From Spirochaetaceae bacterium (GTDB lineage Bacteria; Spirochaetota; Spirochaetia; Treponematales; Rectinemataceae), in NCBI GenBank assembly GCA_025355995.1, contig JANXYQ010000076.1:1-64000 (forward strand): a stretch of 64,000 nt of DNA, written 5' to 3'. The first letter of the stretch is position 1, and each line of letters starts with the position of its first letter. Below the pieces are notes generated by a model. That model was not told where the DNA came from and did no database searches. It saw nothing but the letters and a program-made list of their open reading frames with translations. The position numbers and the translations under genes are program-made. This document shows positions 19,305 to 57,447 of this stretch, in pieces.

Positions 19305-20099
19305 GTGAAAATGGTCGAGAACCCGCTACAGCGGTTGACGGAAGACGAGCTCTGGTCCCGCTACAAGATCAAGAAGGATCCCGCGATCAGGGACGCCTTC
19401 ATAAGGCAGTACGCGCCTCTCGTCAAGTACGTGGCCGGCAAGGTCGCCGCGAGCATGCCGAATACCGTCGAATTCGAGGACCTCGTGGGGTACGGAGTCT
19501 TCGGGCTGCTCGACGCAATAGAGAAATTCGACCCCGATAAGAACGTGAAATTCAAGACCTACGCGATCACCAGGATCCGCGGGGCGATATTCGACGAGCT
19601 TCGCTCGATAGATTGGGTGCCGCGCTCCGTGCGCCAGAAGACCAAGGAGATAGAGGACGCCGTCGTGAGCCTCGAGTCCAAGCTCGGCCGCCCGGCTTCC
19701 GACACGGAGATCGCCTCGTCCATGGGCGTGTCCGAGGACGACTTCCTCAAGACGATGCTCAAGATATCGAGCACCTCGGTGCTCTCGCTCAACGACGTCT
19801 GGTACTCGGGGGACGAGACCGACAAGATCTCTATCGGGGAGAGCATAGAGTCCCCCTCCAGCATGAACCCCGACGCCACGGTCGAGCGCGAGGAAGTGAA
19901 ACGCGTGATCGTGCAGGCGATCAACGAGCTGCCCGAGAAAGAGAAAAAGGTGCTAGTCCTCTATTACTACGAGGATCTGACGCTCAAGGAGATTGGCCAG
20001 GTACTGGAAGTAACCGAATCGCGCGTGAGCCAGCTGCACACGAAGGCGATCCTGCGCCTCCGCGCCAAGCTGACCAACCTGCGCAAGGGAATTCTATAA
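19305..20099 (+). CDS. fliA: Flagellar RNA polymerase sigma factor sigma-28 (FliA/WhiG type)
   Basis: 264 residues. The GTG at 19305 abuts the upstream stop; an in-frame ATG lies two codons later. Region 2 ([52 protein letters not shown], described here by its position about 45-110), region 3 (about 120-180) and region 4 with the [23 protein letters not shown] at about 225-245 are all present. It should transcribe filament, chemotaxis and stator genes. A matching promoter-like site is seen at 7389-7415. Confidence 0.95.
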
Positions 20100-35211: not shown

Positions 35212-36587
<1,376 letters not shown>

Positions 36588-54173: not shown

Positions 54174-54201
54174 TTGCATTGTCGCCCGCATGGGCTATAA
54201 T
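54174..54201 (+). promoter_or_regulatory. Sigma-70-type promoter of the small secreted protein gene
   Basis: TTGCAT (54174-54179), 16-bp spacer, a perfect TATAAT (54196-54201). Transcription would start about 54208, just before the GGAGG site and the ATG at 54223. The nth start is only 26 bp away on the other strand. Confidence 0.75.
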
Positions 54202-54222
54202 TTCGTGCGAACGGAGGGTCGA

Positions 54223-54609
54223 ATGAAACGTGCAACAATCTTCATCGTCCTGGTCGCTTTTTTCGCGTGCTCGCTCGCGGCCGAGACCTCCGCCTTTTAC
54301 CCCGTCAGGATCGACGTGGTCAAGGTCTTCTCCCATTCCGACGGCTACAAGGTCGTCTACCGCAAGGGTACCTCCGACGTGGCCGCGGTATATCTCCCCG
54401 CTCGCTGGTTCGTTCCCGGGGGCAAGGCCGAGCTCGTGCGCGCCAACGACGCCAGTTTTCCGTACATGAGCGTTTTTTATAAGGACGGGAAATTCGACCA
54501 CCTCAGGCTCTACGTCCTCTATGACGACAAGGACCTGACTTGGGGTATACTGAGCCCGTCCGAGGGTGCGGGGAAATTCGGTTCCGAGGAACTGAAGCTC
54601 GAGTTCTAG
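54223..54609 (+). CDS. Small secreted protein of unknown function
   Basis: 128 residues from ATG 54223 with a GGAGG site. A signal peptide (MKRATIFIVLVAFFACSLAA, about 1-20) probably ends at Ala-Glu near 20-21. The mature part (about 108 residues) is beta-rich with many Tyr/Phe and charged residues (GYKVVYRKGTSDVAAVYLP, YVLYDDKDLTWG). No family is recognised. It has its own strong promoter and could be a periplasmic protein. It is followed 44 bp later by the nrnA-type gene. Confidence 0.8.
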   Translation: MKRATIFIVLVAFFACSLAAETSAFYPVRIDVVKVFSHSDGYKVVYRKGTSDVAAVYLPARWFVPGGKAELVRANDASFPYMSVFYKDGKFDHLRLYVLYDDKDLTWGILSPSEGAGKFGSEELKLEF

Positions 54610-54653: not shown

Positions 54654-55628
54654 ATGCGATCCGTTCCTCCCGAGCTACTCGATTTCATCGATCGGCACGG
54701 GCCGTTCTACGTCATCGGCCACAAGGAGCCGGACGGCGATTGCGTCGGCTCCCAGCTAGCCCTCGCCTCGTTCCTGAAGCGCAGCGGCAAAACCGCGTAT
54801 CTGTGCTCGGCGGGGCCCTTCTCGCGCAATGAGATAATGCCCTACGAAAGCAGGTTCTTCGTCGAGGCTCCCCCCGAAAAACCCTCCGAGAGGGCCGCCG
54901 CGATCGTCCTCGACTGCTCCAGCCTCCAGCGCATCGGGGTCGTAGCGGAAACACTGCCCAAGGTCCCTATCGCCTTCATCGACCACCACGCGGCGGGATC
55001 AGCGGTCGGCGACGTAGTCTTCATCGACGATACGGCCCCTTCCGTGACCCTGATGGTCCTGCTCCTGATCGAGGCGATGGGCGGAAAGCCGAACAAGGAG
55101 GAGGCGGAGTACCTCCTCTTCGGCCTCGGAACCGATACCGGCTTCTTCCGCCACCTGGACGATACCTCGAGCGAAGCCTTCGAGGCGGTTTCTCGGCTCG
55201 TGTCGGCCGGCGCCTCGCCCAAGCGCGTCTACAACCTCATGTACGGCGGCAAGAGCCTTTTCTCGCGCAAGCTGATGGGGGAGATCCTCACTCGAACCGA
55301 ACCGCATTTCGACGGGGCCGTGCTCGTCTCCTTCGTGACCCTGATGGACCAGCAGCGCTATGGCCTCGCGAGCAGGGATTCCGATACCCTATACCAGCTG
55401 CTCATGAGCATTTCCGGCTGCGAGGCCGCCATGATCATTCGGCAGGAGGGAGAGTCCGATTGCACGGTCGGCCTGCGCGCCCGCGACAGGATCGACGTCG
55501 GCTCCATCGCGGCGACCTTCGGCGGGGGCGGACACCGCCTGGCCGCCGGTCTCTCCCTCCGCGGAGGGCTCGAAGAAGTGAAGGACAAACTCCTAGGCGC
55601 CTTCGAGCCCTGGTTCAACGGCGGCTGA
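54654..55628 (+). CDS. nrnA: DHH-family phosphoesterase, NrnA-type oligoribonuclease/pAp phosphatase
   Basis: 324 residues. The DHH domain shows IGHKEPDGDCVGSQLAL (about 22-38), LDCSS and IDHHAAGS, which bind two metal ions. The DHHA1 domain ends the protein with GGGGHRLAAGLSLRG. NrnA proteins degrade nanoRNAs and convert pAp to AMP, and related ones hydrolyse pGpG or pApA from cyclic dinucleotides. The gene is between a secreted protein and the sigma-like gene, with a 255-bp gap after it. Confidence 0.9.
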   Translation: MRSVPPELLDFIDRHGPFYVIGHKEPDGDCVGSQLALASFLKRSGKTAYLCSAGPFSRNEIMPYESRFFVEAPPEKPSERAAAIVLDCSSLQRIGVVAETLPKVPIAFIDHHAAGSAVGDVVFIDDTAPSVTLMVLLLIEAMGGKPNKEEAEYLLFGLGTDTGFFRHLDDTSSEAFEAVSRLVSAGASPKRVYNLMYGGKSLFSRKLMGEILTRTEPHFDGAVLVSFVTLMDQQRYGLASRDSDTLYQLLMSISGCEAAMIIRQEGESDCTVGLRARDRIDVGSIAATFGGGGHRLAAGLSLRGGLEEVKDKLLGAFEPWFNGG

Positions 55629-55863
55629 TTCGGAAAAGGGAGACCCGCTCTTCCATGGAGAGGCTGCTCTCCTCGAGAGGGCGCGGGCGACGAGAAACGA
55701 CAGGCTGGCCCCGTCCTCTCGTTCCCCCAGGGCCAGGCGGGGTTCCGATGCTTTATTAGCATAATTTCGACCAGCGGCTAATTGCTTTCGCCGCATCGTC
55801 TTTCCCTACCGTGCAACAGATCCCGCCCGAATTCCCTAACTCATCGGCATGCTTCTTGCAGTT
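55629..55863 (+). other. Intergenic region between nrnA and the sigma-like gene
   Basis: A 255-bp gap with no gene, ending in the hairpin described next. It holds CTCTC/GAGAG and TGCT-TTATT-AGCA stem-loops and a CATAAT box near 55758-55764 with no matching -35 element. The downstream gene probably starts in this gap, but I cannot place a promoter with confidence. Confidence 0.3.
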
Positions 55864-55878
55864 CCTCCTTTCGGGAGG
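55864..55878 (+). promoter_or_regulatory. Hairpin sequestering the ribosome binding site of the sigma-like gene
   Basis: CCTCC (55864-55868), loop TTTCG, GGAGG (55874-55878). The right arm is the whole Shine-Dalgarno sequence, five bases before the ATG at 55884. In RNA the site would be paired with its exact complement, which could limit translation until the hairpin opens, for example by heat or a bound factor. Confidence 0.6.
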
Positions 55879-55883
55879 CATAA

Positions 55884-56786
55884 ATGCCGGAAAGCACGCT
55901 CAACGACCTCATGGTCGCGTATCGCTTTAGCGGAGAGGGCAGGGATCTCATCATGGAAAAAGTCGCCGCCCTCGTATATGACAAGCACCGGAGATTCGGC
56001 TTCGACGACGAGGACGACGCCGCTAATGCCCTGCTGAAATTCCGAGTGAGGATCGTCAAATTAATCGAACGCTTCGAATACCGGGGCGTGCCCTTCGATG
56101 CCTACCTAGCCGCCAACCTGCGCTACCTCGCGCGGACGGCCCGCAGGGAGAGGCGCCGCACGAAGGAAAGGGAGTCGGTGTGCGAGAGGGCCGCCTTCGA
56201 GGAGACGGGAGCGACGGGAGCCGAGGCCTTCGACGCCTCGTCCTTCGGCGCTTCGGATATGGTCTTGGCGGCGAGGCCGAGGGAGCGGCCGGCATCCAAG
56301 CGGAGGCCACGCGCGCGGGGCGGCCTCATCCCGCGCTGCCCCTCCGAGGCCGCGGCCTATTCGAGCCGCCTCGTTTTCCTCGCCGTGAAGTGCGCCTGGG
56401 AAATGGACGAGGAGGGCATCTCGCGCGTCGCCGCTTCCGCCGGCGTAGGCCGCGATTGGCTGGCGGCGGCCATAGAGCAGGCCAGGCGCTCCCTCGTCGG
56501 CGAATGCTCCCGGATCGAGCGGCTGAGCCAGCGCCGCAACGCCTCCTGGACGAGGCTCAGGCTCCTCGAGTCGCGCCTTGCCGACGAGACCGATCCCTAC
56601 CGAAGGGAGCGGCTGGAAGCGGCGAAGGGCAGGGAGGAGTGCCGCTACGCCAATGCCAAGGGAGAGCTCGGTTGCCTAAGGACGATCGTGCCCAACTCGG
56701 TAGTCGCGAGGATACTGGGCGTCCCGAAGGGCACCGTGGATTCCGGGCTTTATTATCTGCGGAAGCGCTACGGTCCCGGCGCCTAG
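55884..56786 (+). CDS. Divergent sigma-70-like (ECF-like) factor, putative
   Basis: 300 residues. Residues about 1-95 resemble sigma region 2: GFDDEDDAANALLKF, then FEYRGVPFDAYLAANLRYLARTARRERRR-type sequence (2.2-2.3). The C-terminus, NSVVARILGVPKGTVDSGLYYLRKRYG, resembles a region 4 HTH. Between them lie an Arg/Ala-rich linker, a second helical part (GISRVAASAGVGRDWLAAAIEQARR) and a coiled coil. If real, it is a long, unusual sigma factor; it could also be a sigma-derived DNA-binding protein. There is no anti-sigma gene next to it. Confidence 0.6.
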   Translation: MPESTLNDLMVAYRFSGEGRDLIMEKVAALVYDKHRRFGFDDEDDAANALLKFRVRIVKLIERFEYRGVPFDAYLAANLRYLARTARRERRRTKERESVCERAAFEETGATGAEAFDASSFGASDMVLAARPRERPASKRRPRARGGLIPRCPSEAAAYSSRLVFLAVKCAWEMDEEGISRVAASAGVGRDWLAAAIEQARRSLVGECSRIERLSQRRNASWTRLRLLESRLADETDPYRRERLEAAKGREECRYANAKGELGCLRTIVPNSVVARILGVPKGTVDSGLYYLRKRYGPGA

Positions 56787-56844: not shown

Positions 56845-57447
56845 ATGGAACTATTCGTCGCTACCGGCAACGCGCATAAACTCATCGAACTCGGACCCGC
56901 CCTGCCAGGGCAGGTCCTGAGGAGCCCGGCGGACGCGGGCATCGAGGGCTTCGACGTCGTGGAGGACGGCGCCACATTCCTCGAGAACGCGGTTAAGAAA
57001 GCCGTGGCCCTCCATCGGCTCGTCGGAAAGCCCTCCCTCGCCGACGATTCGGGGCTGTCCGTCCGAGCCCTGGGAGGAGCGCCCGGAGTGCTCTCCGCCC
57101 GTTACGGATCGATCGACGGGCGCCGCAAGCTCGAGGCCGCCGAGCGCAACGCCTACCTGCTCGCGAACATGGAGGCTCACGAGGATAGGGCCTGCGCCTT
57201 CGTCTGCTGCCTCGTCCTCGTCCTCGCCGAGGACAGGGTGTTCGCCGTCCAGGAAACCTGCCCGGGCGAGCTCCTCCGCGCGCCCAGGGGGAGCGGGGGC
57301 TTCGGCTACGATCCCGTAGTCTACCTCCCCGAGCTGGGAAAGAGCGTCGCGGAGCTTGCGATCGGGGAGAAGAATCGCCTCTCCCACCGTGGCCGGGCCT
57401 GTGCGCGGATGGCTGCCCTGCTCGCCGAACTCGAGTCCAGACCCTAG
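56845..57447 (+). CDS. rdgB: XTP/dITP diphosphatase RdgB (HAM1 family)
   Basis: 200 residues. It hydrolyses deaminated purine triphosphates (dITP, XTP) to keep them out of DNA and RNA. Motifs are LFVATGNAHKLIEL at the N-terminus, TFLENAVKKAVAL, LADDSGLSVRALGGAPGVLSARY (partly quoted), GSGGFGYDPVVYLPELGKSVAEL and LSHRGRACARM. Length and motif order are normal for the family. It lies 58 bp after the sigma-like gene. Confidence 0.95.
   Translation: MELFVATGNAHKLIELGPALPGQVLRSPADAGIEGFDVVEDGATFLENAVKKAVALHRLVGKPSLADDSGLSVRALGGAPGVLSARYGSIDGRRKLEAAERNAYLLANMEAHEDRACAFVCCLVLVLAEDRVFAVQETCPGELLRAPRGSGGFGYDPVVYLPELGKSVAELAIGEKNRLSHRGRACARMAALLAELESRP

Follow-up and report, generated by a model that had tools for sequence, protein, structure and literature searches.

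The window, the whole stretch of 64,000 nucleotides analysed here, carries an open reading frame for a 300-residue protein (55884-56786, + strand), which we describe as a putative regulator related to sigma70 and carrying two HTH modules of the region 4 type. Its ATG start is preceded by a ribosome binding site, GGGAGG (55873-55878, + strand), recognised from the sequence; GGAGG-type sites also stand before most homologues. The gene is single-copy in its own genome and lies between two genes of the same strand, an NrnA-like DHH/DHHA1 phosphoesterase upstream (54654-55628) and an RdgB/Ham1 NTP pyrophosphatase downstream (56845-57447). This synteny is kept: in the organism's own family the DHH gene is upstream in 22 of 23 testable loci and RdgB is downstream in 24 of 24, and the corresponding counts in a sample taken across the class and the phylum are 19/36 and 24/36. 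No anti-sigma gene was found beside the reading frame, whose adjoining genes are these two, in agreement with a preliminary description of the locus. A small, putatively secreted protein encoded 5′ of the DHH gene (54190-54609, + strand) recurs near homologues class-wide. Elsewhere, the window encodes a sigma28/FliA-like factor (19389-20072, + strand) and an NtrC-type enhancer-binding protein (35658-36161, - strand).

Within the family, the protein shares 64 % identity with its nearest relative and about 24-53 % with the other homologues. In a named genome collection, the nearest relative comes from 'Spirochaetaceae bacterium UBA1306'. Homologues occur in 26 of the 30 genomes of the organism's own family (16/16 among those of good quality) and in 191 of 294 genomes of its order, spanning 72 of 83 genera. 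A wider profile matched 240 of 393 genomes of the phylum, most sampled members of the class being positive. Among free-living members of the class, most keep the gene at this same locus. The exceptions include one family whose genomes measure 0.9-1.8 Mb, presumed from their size to be Borrelia-like, and a single 1.1 Mb genome from the same order, likewise presumed T. pallidum-like. Most of the matches outside the class are weak, with E between 1e-3 and 1e-8, and may represent ordinary sigma factors; a small number, with E as low as 2e-20, appear to belong to the gene family. The gene had been proposed to be spirochaete-specific. This holds insofar as it occurs mainly, and class-wide, in one spirochaete class, and it is qualified by the weaker matches elsewhere in the phylum and by the scope of the search, which was the phylum itself.

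Two genomes of family f5 (G167 and G182) hold up to five family matches each, which suggests local expansion or split genes. A phage origin was rejected: no match was found in phages or viral contigs, and the PHROGs matches were weak and mixed. We found no description of the gene family in the literature searched, which covered few subscription journals; its genes may be annotated elsewhere as hypothetical or sigma-like.

Domain architecture of the protein

AlphaFold2, Foldseek, VIA-align and hhalign all point to a sigma region 2-like domain at residues 1-107 (55884-56204, + strand), with a profile-matched core at residues 20-94. Because the full-length AlphaFold2 model was mediocre (pLDDT 63) and its Foldseek matches were mainly coiled-coil proteins, the N-terminal domain was modelled alone, from two sequences, and residues 1-107 then gave a predicted region 2 fold with a pLDDT of 87. 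Foldseek returned 35 matches for this model, mostly sigma factors but with weak E-values (at least 0.7). The top VIA-align match was region 2 of E. coli sigmaE, with a Z of 9.1 and an rmsd of 3.2 across 98 residues, a Z of about 9 not being decisive for a helical domain, as unrelated helical bundles can reach such values. It was followed by SigC, SigK, an engineered sigmaE region 2, ShbA, AlgU and CnrH, and the structural case for region 2 rests on the consistency of this hit list rather than on Z alone.

Profile comparison was performed with hhalign by matching the family profile to sigma factor profiles from the same genome, using reversed profiles as controls. Region 2 (residues 1-107) gave a P of about 1e-4 (reversed control 0.14), the C-terminal HTH a P of 6.5e-6 (reversed control 0.06) and the full length a P of 6e-6, with a co-linear match over profile columns 20-200 that corresponds to region 2 followed by the first region-4-like module. 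Across these three comparisons the reversed controls ranged from 0.06 to 0.7, and the forward P values were lower by at least roughly three orders of magnitude. The results support common ancestry with sigma factors for region 2 and the C-terminal HTH, the two ends that the preliminary description had likened to sigma regions 2 and 4 and for which it had proposed a profile-profile search.

Family models capture the protein to varying degrees. TIGR02937 (sigma70-ECF) scores the window protein at 18 bits (E 0.0017), below its curated cut-off of 42.9 bits, and matches 26 of 46 family members, the best at 7e-11. A Pfam search of the window protein returned no sigma match and nothing relevant, and a PDB sequence search with the family profile gave only a weak homeobox match. 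The earlier idea that such long sigma-like proteins form a new family is supported in that they appear sigma-related by fold and profile, belong mainly to one spirochaete class and are missed by Pfam.

Within region 2.2, the usual core-binding glutamine is replaced in the family alignment (L51 in the window protein). Acidic residues stand at position 44 in 80/82 sequences and at position 48 in 76/83, the window protein itself having N48, and an aromatic residue at 74 and basic residues at 80/88 are kept across the class. Region 2 is followed by a poorly conserved linker (residues 108-154; 56205-56345, + strand) with one conserved proline, P136. About 60 residues past region 2 lies the first region-4-like helical module (residues 155-208; 56346-56507, + strand), which hhalign places co-linear with ECF region 4; compared alone, this module gave P values of 1.5e-3 to 3e-3. 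Next comes a predicted antiparallel coiled-coil hairpin (residues 206-267; 56499-56684, + strand), based on AlphaFold2 helices at 190-234 and 238-267 and on coiled-coil matches. The C-terminal region-4-like HTH (residues 266-297; 56679-56774, + strand) bears the signature LGVPKG[ST]VDSGL and is matched, besides hhalign, by the sigma factor profile NF009171 (residues 269-294 of the window protein, E 0.006). The first module and the C-terminal HTH also match each other as an internal repeat (P 3.6e-5 over 26 columns; reversed 0.19).

Regions 2 and 4 had initially been seen as separated by about 180 residues with another helical motif and a coiled coil. Both elements are present, but the separation is no empty spacer, as it holds the first region-4-like module. 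The helical motif is probably a region 4 module in its usual position and the C-terminal HTH probably a diverged duplicate of region 4 beyond the coiled-coil hairpin, the internal module being the weaker claim of the two. Given the co-linear match over columns 20-200 together with a second region 4 match at the C-terminus, the layout looks like that of an ECF-type sigma factor with a C-terminal extension (region 2, region 4, coiled coil, second HTH) and not like a sigma factor split by a long insert.

Elements upstream of the gene

A sigma54-type (-24/-12) promoter, TCGGCATGCTTCTTGCA, is predicted at 55844-55860 (+ strand), 24 nt before the ATG, with transcription predicted to start at about 55871. 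Its -24 GG and -12 GC have 10 bases between them, and the site is near the consensus TGGCAY-N5-TTGCW. Homologous loci were searched with a weight matrix based on the known sigma54 consensus, with a threshold at the 99th percentile of dinucleotide shuffles. A site above threshold was found upstream of 25/25 homologues of the own family, in 9 of 20 loci from the order's other families and in 24 of 37 from the wider set. Overall, 58 of 82 homologue loci have such a site against 0.8 expected, the loci being related and the counts thus not independent. Outside this site, the intergenic stretch shows little conservation. Transcription of the sigma-like gene from the predicted promoter is strongly supported by this sequence evidence. 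Several f5 loci have no recognisable sigma54 site (L090, L091, L092, L094, L168 and L169 among the homologues), and some f5 homologues of this kind share a CCGATAT stretch before the start.

The rpoN gene is present in 278 of 288 genomes of the order, and the own genome has 14 strong matches to enhancer-binding proteins. A stricter sigma54 pattern gave 16 sites in this genome versus 9 with a reversed-pattern control, so that about half may be chance. The genes behind these sites, identified from their translations, include the sigma-like gene, rpoN, an ammonium transporter (amtB)-like gene and a glutamine synthetase III-like gene. The site at rpoN (G000:C59, L122) lies 94 nt before the predicted start and suggests autoregulation.

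Further upstream, 25-27 of 82 loci carry a strand-oriented direct repeat with a period of 10, TGTAAC-N4-TGTAAC, which lies 5′ of the sigma54 site and is absent from the window. Its core, GTAA-N6-GTAA, has 29 copies on the gene strand in 25 of the 82 upstream regions and 1 on the other strand, with 0.15 expected, and no other spacing of GTAA direct repeats is enriched in these regions. Most copies of the TGTAAC repeat lie 43-206 nt upstream of the -24 element; examples precede the start codon by about 162 nt (L082), 216 nt (L137) and 235 nt (L170). The exact 17-mer occurs in three of eight genomes, all copies being upstream of the sigma-like gene. No inverted-repeat enhancer site is enriched upstream of the homologues. 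A second sigma promoter was considered for the TGTAAC repeats but seems unlikely, because no -10-like element was seen at a fixed distance from them. The repeat could be an enhancer, a response-regulator site or an autoregulatory site; we take it to resemble a CpxR/OmpR-type response-regulator site.

A proposed sigma54 relay and its alternatives

We propose, with a probability of roughly 0.6, that the gene product is an ECF-like, sigma70-derived transcription factor that forms the second tier of a relay headed by sigma54. In broader terms, the product is most likely an ECF-like sigma factor, or a regulator of sigma descent, that is induced through sigma54 and has a doubled region 4. Judging from the sequence, sigma54 RNA polymerase and a signal-responsive enhancer-binding protein would initiate transcription from the 55844-55860 promoter, and the resulting mRNA, with its very short leader, would be translated without a hairpin gate. 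Homology and fold suggest that region 2 would then dock on RNA polymerase and melt a -10-like element, and that one or both region-4-like modules would read upstream DNA. The C-terminal extension of coiled-coil hairpin and second HTH might provide a second DNA contact, or might hold the factor inactive and so replace an anti-sigma. The product would finally switch a second gene set, either with RNA polymerase or on DNA.

Alternatively, the protein may descend from a sigma factor but have lost sigma activity, working instead as a repressor, an activator or an anti-sigma-like competitor. Its expression would again depend on the sigma54 promoter, and it would bind DNA via its two HTH modules or bind RNA polymerase without directing initiation. 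The score under the curated sigma cut-off, the core-binding glutamine that is not conserved in region 2.2, an unusual acidic motif, VDS, in the signature of the C-terminal HTH, and a doubled HTH with a coiled coil, which is unusual in sigma factors, all fit this explanation. However, a pure DNA binder would not need the class-wide region 2 fold with its acidic residues at 44/48, aromatic 74 and basic 80/88, and we judge the loss of sigma function to be a serious but rather unlikely alternative. That the protein is a helical HTH protein unrelated to sigma factors, its resemblance being due to convergence of helical bundles, seems very unlikely. The individual scores are weak, helical folds reach middling Z by chance and the Foldseek E-values are at least 0.7; nevertheless, TIGR02937 matches 26 of 46 members, forward profiles far outperform reversed ones and the structural matches of region 2 are mostly sigma factors.

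The preliminary description had envisaged a hairpin-controlled start and a stress sigma factor; on such a reading, the hairpin would hide the ribosome site until stress melts it. A hairpin, CCTCCT-TTC-GGGAGG, can indeed be drawn at 55864-55878 (+ strand; 5′ arm 55864-55869), but its stability does not exceed that of dinucleotide shuffles (z 0.02). When the folded segment is extended to take in the promoter as well, z is -2.3. Counted from the predicted sigma54 start at about 55871, the 5′ arm spans roughly -7 to -2. Upstream of that start, it would not be transcribed and is thus probably absent from the mRNA. In addition, the hairpin is not common to homologue leaders, and an Rfam search gave no match. 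Post-transcriptional gating by stress is therefore extremely improbable, and a conserved sigma54-type promoter takes the place of the hairpin. The stress label finds no support either: the connection to sigma54 suggests that an enhancer-binding protein relays a signal to the gene, the sigma54 pattern also standing before the amtB-like, glutamine synthetase III-like and rpoN genes of this genome.

Relation to known systems

A conserved, syntenic and apparently sigma54-driven sigma-like gene found class-wide is a candidate second regulatory tier, a question that is testable in culturable relatives. If the relay reading is true, the protein would represent an additional sigma architecture, one in which region 4 is duplicated and no separate anti-sigma exists. 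More tentatively, and possible rather than probable, the relay may be class-wide in spirochaetes, running from sigma54 to a sigma factor of new architecture, with Borrelia RpoN-RpoS as one instance and the doubled region 4 reading tandem upstream elements. Little was found in the literature searched on roles of sigma54 in spirochaetes beyond Borrelia and Leptospira.

With ECF sigma factors (TIGR02937; sigmaE, SigC, SigK, SigH) the window protein has in common the region 2 fold, the co-linear regions 2 and 4 and the HTH signature. It differs in scoring under the curated cut-off and in its extra coiled coil and second HTH, and, unlike typical ECF genes, its gene has no co-encoded anti-sigma and has a sigma54-type promoter. 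In ECF41 a C-terminal extension is a fused regulatory domain that replaces the anti-sigma (PMC3426412), and the window protein likewise combines a long C-terminal extension with no obvious anti-sigma gene. Here, however, the extension is a coiled-coil hairpin with a second region-4-like HTH, and the locus and promoter differ as well. The ECF41 partners (carboxymuconolactone decarboxylase, oxidoreductase, epimerase) are not among the neighbours, and no ECF41-type family match was found.

Leptospira EbpA-RpoN pairs sigma54 with an enhancer-binding protein and has amtB as a target, and the portion of the account considered here mentions no sigma-like target (PMC12655853), in contrast to the gene at this locus. 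The likeness lies in the sigma54-type site at the own genome's amtB-like gene. In Borrelia, rpoS is directly activated by sigma54 (PMC3037356; PMC12655853), and the present locus resembles this system in that a spirochaete sigma54-type promoter, predicted here, would drive the gene of a second sigma-type factor. RpoS differs in being a sigmaS-type factor, and the present gene family was not found in small genomes presumed Borrelia-like. By analogy, Borrelia RpoN-RpoS and ECF41 would be parallels to the proposed relay in how they work, and not in shared membership.
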